Source: Burkholderia sp. WP9
GTDB taxonomy: Bacteria; Pseudomonadota; Gammaproteobacteria; Burkholderiales; Burkholderiaceae
Length of the DNA: 64,000 nt
Assembly (NCBI RefSeq): GCF_900104795.1
Contig: NZ_FNTG01000001.1
Location: 2,232,001-2,296,000, forward strand
Reading direction: 5' to 3'
Numbering within the stretch: position 1 is the stretch's first letter; every line of letters begins with the position of its first letter. Below the pieces are notes generated by a model that saw only the letters and a program-made list of their open reading frames with translations, ran no database searches and was not told where the DNA came from. The position numbers and the translations under genes were made by a program. This document shows, piece by piece, positions 35,500 to 40,085 of the stretch.

Positions 35500-36021
35500 G
35501 TGTCCCAGCCGCTTTCGACCCCTGCATTGCCCGCTGATGCAACCGGCAATGCGCCCACCGTAAGGCGGCGTCTCGCAGCGCTGCTGTACGAAGCGCTGAT
35601 TCTGTTCGGCGTGGTGTTCATCGCTGGATATCTGTTCAGCACCCTGACCCAGCAACGCAACGGGCTGACCCATCACAACCTGCTGGCCGCATGGATCGGG
35701 CTCGTGGTCGGCGTGTACTTCGTCTGGTTCTGGACCCACAGCGGCCAGACCCTGCCGATGAAAACCTGGCGTCTGCGAGTCGTCGCCGCCGACGGCGCGC
35801 CGCTCTCCACCGGTCGTGCCATAACCCGCTACGTGCTTGCGTGGCTGTGGTTTTTACCGCCGCTCGCGCTGCATCCGCTGCTCGGTCTCAAGCTGCCGCA
35901 GACGCTCACGATCGCAGGCATCTGGTTCGTGTTGTGGGCCGCCACCGGGCGCGTCGATTCGCAACGCCAGTTTCTGCACGATCGCCTCGCCGGCACTCGG
36001 GTCGTTAGCGTCTCCGGTTGA
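35500..36021 (+). CDS. RDD family membrane protein (GTG start)
   Basis: 173 residues from a GTG 12 nt after the DUF3106 stop. RDD proteins are small inner-membrane proteins of mostly unknown function; the family is named for Arg/Asp/Asp residues. Membrane helices lie at about 28-48, 63-80 and 110-150. SGQTLPMKTWRLRVVAADGA and QFLHDRLAGTRVV are family signatures. It ends the sigma-DUF3619-DUF3106-RDD unit. No clear terminator follows. Confidence 0.8.
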   Translation: MSQPLSTPALPADATGNAPTVRRRLAALLYEALILFGVVFIAGYLFSTLTQQRNGLTHHNLLAAWIGLVVGVYFVWFWTHSGQTLPMKTWRLRVVAADGAPLSTGRAITRYVLAWLWFLPPLALHPLLGLKLPQTLTIAGIWFVLWAATGRVDSQRQFLHDRLAGTRVVSVSG

Positions 36022-36126
36022 GCGGTTGAACCCGACGGGCAATTCTTTCGCTCTCCTGTTGGACCGGCGCCACATCGTGCGATCTGCAACGGCGGTTCTT
36101 TTGATGCGTTGATTTCCGCCGCCCGC

Positions 36127-36296
36127 GCTTTGCCGCTTCTCCCGCTGCACCGCCTCTCGCCCTTTGCCGAGTCTCCCGCTTCGCCACCTTTCGCCCTTTT
36201 CTGCGTCTCCCGCTGCACCGCCTCTCTCCCTCCGCCCTGTCTCCCGCTCCGCCACCTCTCGCCCTCCGCTGCGTCTCGCGCTTCACAGACCATCGC
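36127..36296. repeat. Five degenerate 34-nt tandem repeats (C/T-rich)
   Basis: Units of exactly 34 nt start at 36127, 36161, 36195, 36229 and 36263. Each carries the core gtctcccgct or close variants and ends in a form of ctctcgc. Units 1 and 3 share gctgcaccgcctct while 2 and 4 share a cgccacct form, so the array has a 68-nt higher-order period. It fills much of the 434-nt gene-free stretch 36022-36455. No spacers are present, so it is not CRISPR. Open frames through it on the minus strand are repeat translations. Confidence 0.8.
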
Positions 36297-36393
36297 ACCT
36301 CACACCAATTCGATTTCACTGCATCCTCCGCTTCGCATCTCACACCCCACCGCCCCCTCTCCCCGCGTCCGCAGTAATAAGAACTTCTCATGA

Positions 36394-36411
36394 CTGTCAC
36401 GGCACAGTCAC
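36394..36411 (+). promoter_or_regulatory. Pho-box-like site upstream of the lipid remodelling cassette
   Basis: CTGTCAC, four bases, then CAGTCAC: the 7-4-7 layout of a PhoB box (consensus two CTGTCAT repeats 11 bp apart). It ends 44 nt before the metallophosphoesterase start. The -10 region is not clear (caatac at 36424-36429 is weak). Confidence 0.55.
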
Positions 36412-36455
36412 GCGCGCCCGGCCCAATACGGGCACCGCAACTCGACGCGTGAGCC

Positions 36456-37397
36456 ATGGACCCCAAAACGTCCGCGACTTCCCTGTTCCGCCAGACCGGC
36501 CCGAGCGTCGACCCCGTCGCGTTCCTCCCGGAACCCAACCATAGCCACGGACGGCCGTTGCCCGTGGCGCCATTGCCACTCGATGCCAACGCCGGCCAGC
36601 ACGACGACGACCACGCCGCGCCGCACCGCTACCGCACCATCTGGCTCTCCGACATCCATCTCGGTTCGAGCGGCTGCCAGGCGCCCTATCTGCTCGATTT
36701 CCTGCGCCATAACGAATCGGAGTATCTGTACCTCGTGGGCGACATCATCGACGGCTGGCAGTTGAAGAAAGGCTGGTACTGGCCGCAGGCGCACAACGAC
36801 GTCGTGCAGAAGGTGCTGCGCAAGGCGCGCAAAGGCACCCAGGTGATCTACGTGCCCGGCAATCACGACGAAGCCGCGCGCCAGTTCTGCGACCTCGCGT
36901 TCGGCGACATCCACGTGCGCGGCGAGGCGTTTCACACCACGCTCGCCGGCAAGCGTCTGTGGATCGTGCACGGCGATCTGTTCGACGGCGTGATCCAGCA
37001 CGCCAAGTGGCTCGCCTATCTCGGCGACACGCTCTACACCATGATCCTGATCCTGAACCGCTGGTTCAACCGGATCCGCAGCCGGCTCGGTTTTCCGTAC
37101 TGGTCGCTATCGCAGTACCTGAAGCATCAGGTGAAGAACGCGGTGAATTTCATCTCGTCGTTCGAACGCGTGATGACCGACGAAGCGCGCCGCCGCGGCT
37201 GCGACGGCGTGGTCTGCGGGCACATCCACAAAGCCGAGATACGCGATATCGACGGCGTCCTGTATTGCAACGACGGCGACTGGGTCGAAAGTTTGTCCGC
37301 ACTCGTCGAGACGTATGAAGGCGAACTCAAGGTGATCTACTGGACCGTGGTGCGCTCCCCGGAAATGGGCGTGCAAAAGGCCCGGGCGACCGCGTAG
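36456..37397 (+). CDS. Calcineurin-like metallophosphoesterase, probable PlcP-type phospholipase C (annotated elsewhere as LpxH-like)
   Basis: 313 residues. The metallophosphoesterase motifs are complete: LSDIHLGSSGCQAPYLLDFL, VGDIIDGW, VPGNHDEAA, IVHGDLFD and CGHIHKAEI (about residues 65-240). The region WYWPQAHNDVVQKVLRKARK and FPYWSLSQYLK is what I recall from PlcP, the phosphate-starvation phospholipase C of rhizobia and marine bacteria that releases diacylglycerol from phospholipids. It is longer than true LpxH (about 240 aa). Residues 1-55 form a non-conserved extension. It is followed by a GT4 glycosyltransferase and dgkA. Confidence 0.82.
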   Translation: MDPKTSATSLFRQTGPSVDPVAFLPEPNHSHGRPLPVAPLPLDANAGQHDDDHAAPHRYRTIWLSDIHLGSSGCQAPYLLDFLRHNESEYLYLVGDIIDGWQLKKGWYWPQAHNDVVQKVLRKARKGTQVIYVPGNHDEAARQFCDLAFGDIHVRGEAFHTTLAGKRLWIVHGDLFDGVIQHAKWLAYLGDTLYTMILILNRWFNRIRSRLGFPYWSLSQYLKHQVKNAVNFISSFERVMTDEARRRGCDGVVCGHIHKAEIRDIDGVLYCNDGDWVESLSALVETYEGELKVIYWTVVRSPEMGVQKARATA

Positions 37398-37433
37398 TCC
37401 CTGCTTGTTAACTTCTCTATTGGGCCGAAACCG

Positions 37434-38465
37434 ATGAAGATCATGATCGTCACCGACGCATGGGAACCGCAGGTCAATGGCGTCGTACGCACGCTGAAAA
37501 ACACCACGCGCGAACTCAGCGCACTCGGCCACCGCGTCGATCTGCTGACGCCGCTCGAGTTCAAGACGATCCCTTGCCCGACCTATCCGGAGATCCGTCT
37601 GTCGCTGCTGCCGCGCCGCAAGCTGCGCCAGCGTATCGACGCATTCGCGCCCGACGCCTTGCATATCGCCACGGAAGGTCCGCTCGGCATGGCCGCGCGC
37701 GCCTATGCGATTCAGCACAAGCTGCCGTTCACGACCGCTTATCACACGCGTTTTCCGGAGTATGTGCAGGCGCGCTTCGGCATTCCGCTCGCCGCGACCT
37801 ACAAGTTCCTGCACTGGTTTCACAAGCCGTCGCTGTCCGTGATGGCGCCCACGCCGGTCGTCAAGAGCGACCTGGAGAAATTCGGCTTCACCAACGTCGT
37901 GCTGTGGACGCGCGGCGTCGACCTGGACATCTTTCACCAGATGGACTCGAAGGTGCTCAATACCGCCCGGCCGATCTTTCTGTATGTGGGACGTGTGGCG
38001 GTCGAGAAAAACGTCGAGGCGTTTCTTAAGCTCGATCTGCCCGGCTCGAAGTGGGTGGCCGGTGAAGGCCCGGCGCTCGCCGAACTGAAGTCGCGCTATC
38101 CGCAAGCGAATTATCTGGGCGTGCTCACGCAGGCCGAACTGGCGAAGGTCTATGCGGCCGCTGACGTGTTCGTGTTCCCGAGCCGTACCGACACGTTCGG
38201 GCTCGTGCTGCTCGAAGCGCTCGCCTGCGGCACGCCCGTCGCGGCATATCCGGTCACCGGTCCGATCGACGTGCTCGGCGACGGCGGCGCCGGCGCGATG
38301 CACGAGGACCTGCGCGAAGCTTGCCTGGAAGCCCTGAAGATCGATCGCAACCATGCGCGCGCGTGGGCCGAACGCTTCTCGTGGGCGGCGGCCTCCGAGC
38401 AGTTCGCCGCGCATCTGAAGCCACTTCCGCGCGCAACGTACCGCGAGGAAAGCGCCGCCGCATGA
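37434..38465 (+). CDS. GT4 glycosyltransferase, probable diacylglycerol glycosyltransferase (Agt-like)
   Basis: 343 residues, two Rossmann domains of the GT-B fold. The N-terminal MKIMIVTDAWEPQVNGVVRT is typical of GT4 enzymes. The donor-binding part has LYVGRVAVEKNVEAFL and FVFPSRTDTFGLVLLEALAC (the E-x7-E motif). It starts 36 nt after the metallophosphoesterase and overlaps dgkA by four bases. Adjacent plcP-agt pairs make glycosyl-diacylglycerol lipids when phosphate is short. Other GT4 roles such as mannosyltransfer to lipid carriers are possible. Confidence 0.8.
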   Translation: MKIMIVTDAWEPQVNGVVRTLKNTTRELSALGHRVDLLTPLEFKTIPCPTYPEIRLSLLPRRKLRQRIDAFAPDALHIATEGPLGMAARAYAIQHKLPFTTAYHTRFPEYVQARFGIPLAATYKFLHWFHKPSLSVMAPTPVVKSDLEKFGFTNVVLWTRGVDLDIFHQMDSKVLNTARPIFLYVGRVAVEKNVEAFLKLDLPGSKWVAGEGPALAELKSRYPQANYLGVLTQAELAKVYAAADVFVFPSRTDTFGLVLLEALACGTPVAAYPVTGPIDVLGDGGAGAMHEDLREACLEALKIDRNHARAWAERFSWAAASEQFAAHLKPLPRATYREESAAA

Positions 38466-39154
38466 CGCGGCGCGCCGAGCTGTCCATGCGAACCAGAACC
38501 TCTCCTGTGGCCCGCGCGTCGAACGGCGCGCTGCGCGCCGTCGATACCGACAGCACCGCCAGCATCGAACCGTTCGACGACGTGAGCGAACCAGGCACGC
38601 CGAATCATGCAGATCACGCGCATGGTTTGGACGGCATGAATGGCACGCGCGTGGCGAACAACATGCGACACGCCCCGCCACGCGACGCACAAGACGAAAC
38701 GCAGCACGACGCGCAGCACGAACCGCTCAGCCCCGACGATCCGCTCGCGCCGCTGCCCTTCAATCCGTACAAGGGCAATCGCGGCGTCACGCGCGCCTGG
38801 CACGCGATGAAAAATTCGCTCGCCGGATTTCGCGTCGCGATCCGCGAGGAAAGCGCGTTTCGCCAGGAACTCACGCTCGCCGCGATCCTGATTCCGTGCG
38901 GCGTGCTGGTGCCGGTCGATCCGGTATCGCGCGTGTTGCTGCTCGGCTCCGTGCTGCTGGTGCTGATCGTCGAGTTGCTGAATTCGAGCGTCGAAGCGGC
39001 TATCGACCGCATTTCGCTCGAACGCCACGAACTCTCGCGACGCGCGAAGGATCTCGGCAGCGCGGCCGTGATGGTCGCGCTCGGCATGTGCCTGATGACG
39101 TGGCTTTTGATCGTCGGGCCGCTCGTGGTGCAGTGGCTCAAGGCATGGCTGTGA
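38462..39154 (+). CDS. dgkA: Diacylglycerol kinase with long N-terminal extension
   Basis: 230 residues from an ATG overlapping the glycosyltransferase stop (ATGA). The DgkA core of about 120 residues is at the C terminus: RAWHAMKNSLAGFRVAIREE, FRQELTLAAILIPCGVLVPV, then the signature LVLIVELLNSSVEAAIDRIS and AKDLGSAAVMVALGM, with three membrane helices. The first about 105 residues are hydrophilic and His/Asp-rich, unlike the usual about 120-residue protein; a later start inside the frame is possible. DgkA phosphorylates diacylglycerol to phosphatidate, so it can recycle the product of the neighbour phospholipase. Confidence 0.88.
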   Translation: MTRRAELSMRTRTSPVARASNGALRAVDTDSTASIEPFDDVSEPGTPNHADHAHGLDGMNGTRVANNMRHAPPRDAQDETQHDAQHEPLSPDDPLAPLPFNPYKGNRGVTRAWHAMKNSLAGFRVAIREESAFRQELTLAAILIPCGVLVPVDPVSRVLLLGSVLLVLIVELLNSSVEAAIDRISLERHELSRRAKDLGSAAVMVALGMCLMTWLLIVGPLVVQWLKAWL

Positions 39155-39241
39155 AGCCGCGCCGCGGCCGCTTCGGCGCAGCCGAACCGTAAGCGAACTG
39201 TGCGCGAAATCGCCGCGAATAATGAAAACCCTGAGTATTCG

Positions 39242-39269
39242 CTTGGTATAAGAACGCTCGGTTTATAAT
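39242..39269 (+). promoter_or_regulatory. Candidate promoter and operator of the tetR-LOG-SDR unit
   Basis: A perfect TATAAT (39264-39269) has CTTGGT 16 bp upstream as a weak -35. The arms GAACG (39252-39256) and CGTTC (39270-39274) flank the -10 region as an imperfect operator-like inverted repeat, where a TetR regulator could control its own gene. Confidence 0.5.
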
Positions 39270-39359
39270 CGTTCGATACACCAACCGCGTCCGGGCGGAT
39301 CACGCAAAGAGCGGCACGCCGCCGTGTGCCCCAGCCCGGCGTAACCAGGGCCGGACGAC

Positions 39360-40085
39360 ATGGAAGCCAAACCTCCCCGCCGCACGCGCGAACGGATTCT
39401 CGAACTCTCGTTGAAGCTGTTCAACGAAATCGGCGAGCCGAACGTCACGACGACGACGATCGCCGAGGAAATGGAAATCAGTCCAGGCAACCTGTACTAC
39501 CACTTCCGCAACAAAGACGACATCATCAACAGCATCTTCAGCCAGTTCGAGCAGGAGATCGAAAAGCGTCTGCGTTTTCCCGACGACCATCGCGCGACCA
39601 TCGACGAAATGTGGTCGTATCTGCAGTACATGGTCGATTTCACCTGGCGCTATCGCTTCCTGTATCGTGATCTGAACGATCTGCTGGCGCGCAATCGCAC
39701 GCTCGAAACGCACTTCAAGCAGATCATCAGCCACAAGGTGCGTTTTGCGAGCCAGTTCTGCGAGCAGCTCGTTGCCGACGGCGAAATGGTCGCCACGCCT
39801 GAAGAACTGCACGTGATCGCCACCAACGTCGGCGTGATCGGCACGTATTGGCTCTCGTATCAGTTCGTGATGAACCCGCGCAAATACAACGAGCAGGAGG
39901 CGATTCGCGCGGAGCTGCATCAGGTGAGCGTGCAGATCGTCTCGTTGATGGCGCCTTATCTGCGCGGCCGCTCGCGGCAGATTTTCGACGACCTCGTGTC
40001 GGGCAAACTGCCCAAGCGCGAGTTTTACGACTACCTGCCGCCCAAGGAAGGCGCCGCGCCCCGCAACGAACCGAAGGACGCTTGA
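39360..40085 (+). CDS. TetR/AcrR family transcriptional regulator
   Basis: 241 residues. The N-terminal DNA-binding domain (residues about 8-55) includes RERILELSLKLFNEIGEPNV and TTIAEEMEISPGNLYYHFRN, the TetR helix-turn-helix. The rest is a helical ligand-binding domain rich in aromatic and acidic residues (WSYLQYMVDFTWRYRFLYRD). It is followed within 2 nt by a LOG-family gene. The ligand and targets are unknown. Confidence 0.92.
   Translation: MEAKPPRRTRERILELSLKLFNEIGEPNVTTTTIAEEMEISPGNLYYHFRNKDDIINSIFSQFEQEIEKRLRFPDDHRATIDEMWSYLQYMVDFTWRYRFLYRDLNDLLARNRTLETHFKQIISHKVRFASQFCEQLVADGEMVATPEELHVIATNVGVIGTYWLSYQFVMNPRKYNEQEAIRAELHQVSVQIVSLMAPYLRGRSRQIFDDLVSGKLPKREFYDYLPPKEGAAPRNEPKDA

Follow-up and report, generated by a model that had tools for sequence, protein, structure and literature searches.

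A predicted Pho operon of Burkholderia sp. WP9 that probably serves membrane lipid renovation and joins PlcP and an Agt-type glycosyltransferase to a diacylglycerol kinase

The renovation of membrane lipids at low phosphate is usually described as two steps, a phospholipase C (PlcP) and then a glycosyltransferase (Agt); what, then, would a third gene, encoding a diacylglycerol kinase, contribute directly behind plcP and agt in Burkholderia sp. WP9? The three genes lie in a stretch of 64,000 nucleotides (C1:2232001-2296000, hereafter the window) of the 9.02 Mb genome. The organism belongs to the Burkholderiaceae and its nearest named relatives are Paraburkholderia; the window PlcP is 96% identical to the homologue of P. 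elongata and 95% identical to that of P. rhynchosiae. We consider the locus probably a Pho operon for membrane lipid renovation in phosphate starvation, carrying both outlets of the diacylglycerol pool made by PlcP, namely the glycosyltransferase (GT) and the diacylglycerol kinase (DGK). Its features are:

36394..36411, + strand: Pho box CTGTCAC-ggca-CAGTCAC, two half-sites, recognized from the sequence and its conservation in relatives
36424..36429, + strand: possible -10 element CAATAC, 12 nt 3' of the Pho box, inferred from the alignment of relatives
36456..37397, + strand: plcP, metallophosphoesterase of the phospholipase C type, commonly mis-named LpxH; 313 aa; assigned by domain, tree, motif and family scores
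37434..38465, + strand: agt, GT4 glycosyltransferase, probable diacylglycerol glycosyltransferase; 343 aa; assigned by domains and identity to the P. aeruginosa protein
38462..39154, + strand: dgkA, prokaryotic diacylglycerol kinase; 230 aa, with the core at about residues 105-220 and a long, weakly constrained N-terminal part
38462..38465, + strand: ATGA, 4-nt overlap of the agt stop and the annotated dgkA start; not general among relatives

An earlier reading made from the letters alone (the sequence-only reading) had described this layout, and re-reading of the sequence found it correct to the base: the genes share one strand, plcP and agt are separated by 36 nt, agt and dgkA overlap by 4 nt (ATGA), and 44 nt separate the 7-4-7 repeat from the plcP ATG at 36456. 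Pfam domains were found in all three products, with Metallophos (PF00149) at 42.5 bits (cut-off 21.5) for plcP, GT4/GT1 domains at 86.7 and 69.8 bits for agt, and DAGK_prokar at 108.6 bits (cut-off 22.3) for dgkA. For comparison, we used 80 loci with a plcP homologue (the related loci, some clipped by contig ends), 60 genomes of the family that were at least 95% complete, and 150 Burkholderiales genomes.

By its sequence, the first gene is a PlcP-type phospholipase C. Two loci from records filed as plasmids were used as references: a Pseudomonas aeruginosa locus (L113), in which the plcP homologue is followed by a GT and then a CyaB gene, and a Sinorhizobium meliloti locus (L112), in which it lies near an acyl-homoserine lactone synthase/LuxR pair. 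From these neighbors, and for L113 also from PMC8528852, we take L113 to be the PA3219-PA3218 plcP-agt1 locus and L112 to be the characterized S. meliloti plcP (SMc00171). The window PlcP is 53% identical over 238 residues to the L113 protein and 51% identical over 266 residues to the L112 protein. These values exceed the 47% and 46% reported between PA3219, of the PA3219-PA3218 (plcP-agt1) operon of P. aeruginosa, and two other characterized PlcPs (PMC8528852). In a tree of 85 rows, drawn from 25 of the 80 related loci and from L112-L156 without L114, the 15 LpxH proteins stood on one side with support of 100/100, and the window protein and both references were among the other 70. Long branches join the two sides and leave the root of each unsure; the long-row warnings near the split concern L169 (LpxH) and L136 (PlcP-like), and the window protein is far from both. 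The motif GNHD was present in all 70 rows of the PlcP side, including the window, and GNRD in all 15 LpxH rows; the Arg at this position is found in LpxH alone (PMC5016852). The metal-ligand residues D66, H68, D96, N136, H137, H172, H256 and H258 are present in the window protein, and all except D66 are invariant in seven aligned proteins, some of them clipped at the N-terminus. The product thus combines a metallophosphoesterase domain and its ligand motifs with a grouping beside the characterized plcP loci and apart from LpxH. Tree, motif and family scores (given below) agree with the sequence-only reading, which had assigned the product of 36456-37397 to PlcP rather than LpxH. PlcP and LpxH are expected to have a common fold, by which a structural model would not tell them apart. 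Some further observations were made on these families. In L115, a plasmid of Mitsuaria sp. 7, plcP adjoins ppk1 and a Ppx/GppA phosphatase gene, and the locus lacks a GT match. L065, titled a Klebsiella pneumoniae metagenome-assembled genome (MAG), groups with betaproteobacterial PlcP rows and is likely a mislabelled bin. Near lpxH in the WP9 genome (L103, about 2380-2570), a short-unit repeat reads EAEAEA or RSRSRS in overlapping frames.

The second product was taken in the sequence-only reading for an Agt-type GT4 enzyme, an assignment supported by comparison with the GT of the P. aeruginosa Agt1 locus (L113), to which it is 51% identical over 346 residues. It combines GT4 domains with high similarity to a characterized member. 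A GT match was found in 77 of the 80 related loci, with the GT before plcP in L063 and L079, and no second close copy (Agt2-like) was found in the WP9 genome, the next best match scoring 40.4 bits. The motifs HTRFPEY (H104), TRGVD (T159, R160) and FSW (W317), read without an alignment to the Pelagibacter enzyme, resemble the residues crucial in it, His104, Thr162, Arg163 and Trp320 (PMC8231724). The L113 protein has RKGVD where the window protein has TRGVD. Because Agt1 makes monoglucosyldiacylglycerol (MGDG; PMC8528852) and the enzyme of Pseudomonas appears to use UDP-glucose specifically (PMC8231724), the likeliest product of the window GT is monoglucosyl-diacylglycerol.

The core of the third product matched solved diacylglycerol kinase entries (2kdc and others, which we take to be E. 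coli DgkA) at 93 bits. In the alignment, E130, E171, N174, E178, K196 and D197 of the window kinase correspond to Glu28, Glu69, Asn72, Glu76, Lys94 and Asp95 of E. coli. The DgkA residues named as important (PMC4703834) are in place, and together with the family domain above its cut-off they identify the product as DgkA. It is the sole DAGK_prokar gene of the genome, so it presumably also serves as the housekeeping kinase. A specialized second copy was considered and rejected for this genome on the same ground; second copies occur in 8 of the 36 family genomes in which the gene is linked to plcP. The first approximately 104 residues are variable in length and weakly constrained among relatives: when the gene was compared with those of nine close relatives, the substitutions counted by codon position (1/2/3) were 291/253/370 in this part and 101/35/336 in the core. 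The true start of dgkA is thus less certain than its core. The sequence-only reading had held the kinase to be co-translated with the other two genes; the 4-nt overlap is present here, but it is not general: with starts chosen heuristically, dgkA begins no later than the GT stop in 22 of 49 trios.

The Pho-box-like site 44 nt before the first start, also noted in that reading, was confirmed by the PhoB motif scan that had been proposed beforehand. The pattern CTGTCAYN4CWGTCAY, in which W was admitted after the plcP site had been seen (the site has one mismatch to the strict CTGTCAYN4CTGTCAY), has a single perfect match in the whole genome, the plcP site at 36394-36411. With one mismatch allowed, 13 sites were found, the plcP site included, and the reversed pattern gave 3. 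When the upstream regions of the window and of 26 near-relative loci were aligned (27 in all), TGTCA and GTCA were invariant and equally spaced. The mean conservation of the box was 0.89, ranking 20 of 163 18-nt stretches (median 0.56), and the stretches that out-ranked it include ones starting 8 to 15 nt earlier and reaching into the first half-site. Upstream of plcP, a box with at most one mismatch was found in 21 of 77 related loci and with at most two in 45 of 77, versus 0.00 and 0.40 expected from dinucleotide shuffles; at up to two mismatches, it was also found in 8 of 19 order-level and 6 of 18 phylum-level loci (shuffles 0.25 and 0.00), this count covering 19 of 20 loci at order level and 18 of 20 at phylum level. 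The upstream regions of 15 lpxH genes served as a further control, and none (0/15) had a site within three mismatches, the best never being under four. Shuffles and lpxH regions replaced an earlier control with the reversed motif (48/77 plcP loci within two mismatches versus 11/77), in which the partial self-symmetry of the site lets the reversed motif match as well; for this reason, it no longer served as the main control. Both counts used 77 of the 80 related loci; the reversed-motif run omitted L052 and L088, which were without the motif, and L024, which had too little upstream sequence.

Other phosphate loci were also inspected. The P. aeruginosa plcP locus (L113) has two overlapping Pho sites at two mismatches, 83 and 72 nt upstream. 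Among the four pstS copies of the WP9 genome, one (L186) carries CTGTCACatccGTTTCAC and TAGTCACgttaCTGTCAC, of the same half-site type as the plcP box; two others have one repeat at three mismatches, and the best site of L189 is one at four. At the 12 other genomic sites within one mismatch, inspected by eye with no family search run, Pho-type genes were recognized at just one (L100), so the strict one-mismatch motif seems a poor genome-wide predictor of the Pho regulon in this genome. In L100 (C2:711000-717000), the one-mismatch box stands before phnG/phnH-like genes, as judged by eye. Downstream of the plcP box, AAT[AG]C was present at the -10 position in all 27 printed alignment rows (by eye). 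A simple scan found no consensus sigma-70 promoter within 36000-39400. In Pho promoters, the Pho box replaces the -35 element; if this is so here, the absence of a sigma-70 consensus would be expected. As the box lies at a suitable distance from the start and is kept in relatives, the operon is apparently under PhoB control at low phosphate. The space that separates the RDD gene from the Pho box contains five copies of a 34-nt tandem repeat, 78% pyrimidine (window 36116-36286).

The linkage of the three genes is conserved in the family. Of the 60 family genomes, 46 have a DGK and 41 a PlcP, and all 41 hold both. The DGK was linked, that is, downstream of plcP on the same strand within 5 kb, in 36 of these 41, and in 28 of the 36 it was the sole DGK. 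One genome scored as unlinked (G196) looks like a contig break, with plcP-agt at one contig end and DGK-TetR-LOG at another, and one scored as linked (G168) has stops within the PlcP match. Among the related loci, 49 of 80 have the trio on one strand. Genes for ilvB, a sigma factor, DUF3106, RDD, TetR and LOG flank it throughout the Burkholderia-Cupriavidus-Ralstonia loci. The trio also stands without that flanking set in further betaproteobacterial loci (L057-L060, L062, L070, L074, L075, L078 and L082), and therefore the unit is the three genes; two of these loci (L062 and L074) are among five titled Polynucleobacter. In a DGK tree, 38 of 42 linked rows fell in one clade of 47 rows (96/88); the linked rows outside it were L137, L138, L141 and L145, and in L138 opposite-strand genes intervene. 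The linkage history on this tree has eight changes, at least five of them forced, on 116 columns with weak resolution. Seventeen near-duplicate loci were skipped, and L073, L142 and L144 were placed in no group. L038, titled a Bordetella sp. MAG, groups with Burkholderia-group DGK rows and is likely a mislabelled bin. None of the 49 linked DGK genes has a Pho box of its own within three mismatches.

GT and kinase also occur as a single protein elsewhere. In Verticiella sp. GG226 (L078:5975-7384), GT4 and DGK share a single intact reading frame, which overlaps plcP at the latter's end. A length-restricted search with the DGK half as query, in which 7998 candidates were scored, found 140 proteins; among the 120 matches listed, 76 have the GT4-then-DGK architecture, mostly of about 467 aa. 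These Agt-type GT4-DgkA fusions (P0121-P0124 and most of P0169-P0240) come from Verticiella and some Alphaproteobacteria, the named hosts being Verticiella sediminum (P0124), LSUCC0684 (P0172), an Alphaproteobacteria MAG (P0173) and a Puniceispirillales MAG (P0220). The alphaproteobacterial hosts (LSUCC0684, Puniceispirillales) are presumably marine. The source names of three fusions mention both diacylglycerol kinase and glycosyltransferase. Two proteins, P0138 (Paraburkholderia-like) and P0125, appear to be frame merges and are not to be counted as real fusions. An alignment of 13 fusions shows no variation in the kinase residues or at GT positions such as H104 and R160. The fusion of GT4 and DGK in these groups suggests that the two enzymes share a diacylglycerol pool. 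In a Burkholderiales MAG (L077:4959-6866), PlcP and GT4 lie in a single open frame of 636 aa, which may be real or due to a lost stop.

What would such an operon do? At low phosphate, PhoB would bind the conserved box and switch the operon on. By orthology to characterized PlcPs, PlcP would cleave phospholipids to diacylglycerol and a phosphorylated head group, and the GT4 enzyme, judged by its identity to the Agt1-locus protein, would glycosylate the diacylglycerol, likeliest to monoglucosyl-diacylglycerol. Agt and DgkA would compete for the diacylglycerol made by PlcP, the sugar lipid outlet saving phosphate and the kinase returning unglycosylated diacylglycerol to phosphatidate at the cost of ATP. 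A possible balance of this kind between glycolipid and phospholipid had been suggested in the sequence-only reading. This return could prevent a build-up of diacylglycerol, allow head-group exchange or keep a minimum of phospholipid, and it would permit a quick return once phosphate is back. As the sole kinase, DgkA should also recycle diacylglycerol of other origin, and because it should serve at high phosphate too, some PhoB-independent expression from a second promoter or by read-through would be expected; no second or internal promoter for dgkA was visible in the simple scan of 36000-39400. More tentatively, and with somewhat less than even confidence, we propose that Agt and DgkA, as adjacent genes or as a bifunctional protein, form a coupled branch-point module that steers PlcP diacylglycerol to sugar lipid or phospholipid, the usually sole kinase having been placed under PhoB in most sampled plcP-bearing Burkholderiaceae.

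The identity of each product has an alternative. Following the usual annotation, the metallophosphoesterase would be a second LpxH of lipid A synthesis: both belong to a common superfamily, most named database homologues bear the UDP-2,3-diacylglucosamine diphosphatase/LpxH name (as the sequence-only reading had warned), and the two NCBIfam LpxH models match weakly, at 30-34 bits. These scores (30.2 and 33.5 bits) are far below the cut-offs of 190.35 and 134, and His stands instead of Arg after the Asn ligand, so an LpxH identity was rejected; an LpxH, above cut-off at 228.2 bits, is encoded elsewhere in the genome (C1:816735-817385), and the tree, the GNHD/GNRD split and the Pho box, absent from the 15 lpxH genes, also make this alternative extremely improbable. 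As for the kinase, the DAGK_prokar family includes undecaprenol kinases, and the substrate of the window enzyme might be a different lipid alcohol (undecaprenol, for instance, which Gram-positive relatives use) rather than diacylglycerol. We find this quite improbable, as its best solved relatives are diacylglycerol kinase entries with aligned catalytic residues and as it is linked, and elsewhere fused, to diacylglycerol enzymes. The GT4 enzyme might likewise use another acceptor, for example a cell-wall or lipopolysaccharide (LPS) lipid, and its product would then not be a glycosyl-diacylglycerol; GT4 specificity is unreadable from sequence, and the protein passed no NCBIfam model (best 80.9 bits versus a cut-off of 480). 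Its identity to the plcP-locus GT of P. aeruginosa, reported as the MGDG-making Agt1 (PMC8528852), its place directly after plcP and its motifs like the crucial Pelagibacter residues (PMC8231724) render that alternative improbable.

Several observations weigh against the reading of the locus as a Pho operon with two diacylglycerol outlets, and against the place of the kinase in particular. In 32 of the 77 regions scanned before plcP, no box within two mismatches was present; the S. meliloti locus (L112) has just one site, at three mismatches. In the Burkholderiales survey, 77 genomes have PlcP and 65 of these also have DGK; the two are linked downstream in 14 of the 65, nearby otherwise in 2 and apart in 49. 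As linkage is a minority outside the family, the pathway does not need it. Within the family, G190 shows plcP-agt-TetR (L229, L203), the kinase having been lost between agt and TetR and lying on another contig, a natural variant in which kinase and operon are separate. Three of the Polynucleobacter-titled loci (L056, L061 and L064) show no DGK. Among 37 unlinked DGK genes (30 from plcP-bearing genomes; L202 omitted for its short upstream region), none had a Pho box within two mismatches and four had one at three, and therefore DGK is not a Pho gene in general. In an alphaproteobacterial family (f74; L230, L231), the order is DGK-PlcP-GT with a purF-like gene alongside, as seen by eye, and Pho-like repeats of the CTGACAC type lie between DGK and PlcP with the kinase before the repeat, so adjacency there does not imply shared control. 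Re-phosphorylating diacylglycerol costs phosphate and looks wasteful in starvation. The kinase seems to join the Pho response solely through its position behind plcP-agt, and mostly not to do so in the sampled Burkholderiales.

The kinase could then be a passenger, a single housekeeping dgkA that is in the operon by ancestry and has no part in lipid renovation. Housekeeping dgkA recycles the diacylglycerol left by the decoration of osmoregulated glucans or LPS, and such a job is expected where it is the sole DAGK_prokar gene, as here and in 28 of the 36 linked genomes; with 38 of 42 linked rows in one clade, a single ancient event may account for most of the linkage, and the two genes lie apart in the majority of sampled Burkholderiales that have both. 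However, the linkage outlives changes of the flanks and recurs outside the main clade (L137, L138, L141 and L145, with the forced changes counted on 116 columns), the DGK-PlcP-GT order is found in another class, and GT4-DGK fusions exist. For these reasons, we regard a passenger kinase as unlikely, and we retain the reading in which the kinase is the second outlet of the PlcP diacylglycerol pool.

The first two genes also occur on viral contigs. When IMG/VR contigs were searched with the fusion alignment, 49 carried an Agt-like GT (L250-L297), and PlcP was next to or near it on 39 of these, in 19 PlcP clusters at 90% identity; no DGK was found on the 49 contigs. On eight sampled contigs, 17 of 26 neighboring proteins match phage families, including a T4-type topoisomerase II subunit, tail fibre, ribonucleotide reductase, thymidylate synthase, exonuclease and DNA ligase; also among the 17 is a phosphate transporter subunit, encoded on L290. 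As bacteria too encode members of several of these families, a viral origin is not proven for every contig. Named phages carry PlcP-like genes as well: Pelagibacter phage Mosig EXVC030M (L299; 48% identity), where the gene adjoins a phosphate-transporter gene, and Synechococcus phage S-SRM01 (L300; 33% identity). The viral GT search matched three phage records, neither Mosig nor S-SRM01 among them. No Pho box within three mismatches was found before viral genes (0/36). From these gene contents, phages may reprogramme host lipid renovation.

If the branch-point proposal is true, the membrane's entire diacylglycerol economy would be governed by phosphate supply. The kinase would add a return arm and turn renovation into a regulated partition instead of a one-way loss, and the system bears on how bacteria check potentially harmful diacylglycerol during phosphate starvation. 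The analysis also corrects a widespread LpxH misannotation in this family. Burkholderiaceae are important in soil, plant and chronic-infection settings.

How does the locus compare with known systems? The S. meliloti plcP resembles it in the 51% identity of the protein, and L112 differs in having no GT4 or DGK match within about 5 kb on each side. This gene was reportedly described by Zavaleta-Pastor et al. in 2010. S. meliloti PlcP is a PhoB-regulated phospholipase C that releases diacylglycerol, which is usable for betaine lipid (PMC10315480). The plcP-agt1 operon of P. aeruginosa (PA3219-PA3218; PMC8528852) shares the gene order, the 53% and 51% identities of the two proteins and a Pho box before plcP; it differs in that no kinase is in the operon, L113 continuing with CyaB, and in that P. 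aeruginosa has a second Agt, Agt2 (PA0842; PMC8528852), of which the WP9 genome has no close copy. In the plcP-agt clusters of marine bacteria and methanotrophs (PMC4796936, PMC9239053), plcP is likewise directly followed by agt, glycolipids have been shown and Pho boxes have been predicted (PMC4796936); the word "kinase" occurs 0 times in the main text of either paper. In Pseudomonas putida BIRD-1, DagK is named with PlcP as phosphate-responsive and PHO-dependent, with no gene linkage or DagK kinase family given in the text seen (PMC5082522). The window DgkA shares with E. coli DgkA the integral-membrane kinase core, its 93-bit match and the catalytic residues, and differs in having about 104 extra N-terminal residues and in sitting in a Pho operon. 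The sequence-only reading had called the three-gene form little described; a literature search, which was not exhaustive, found no description of a plcP-agt-dgkA operon, and a PHO-dependent PlcP and kinase have been published for P. putida BIRD-1 (PMC5082522). Lipid renovation by PlcP and Agt under PhoB is already established (PMC8528852, PMC4796936, PMC9239053), and the kinase arm is the unusual element on this known operon.

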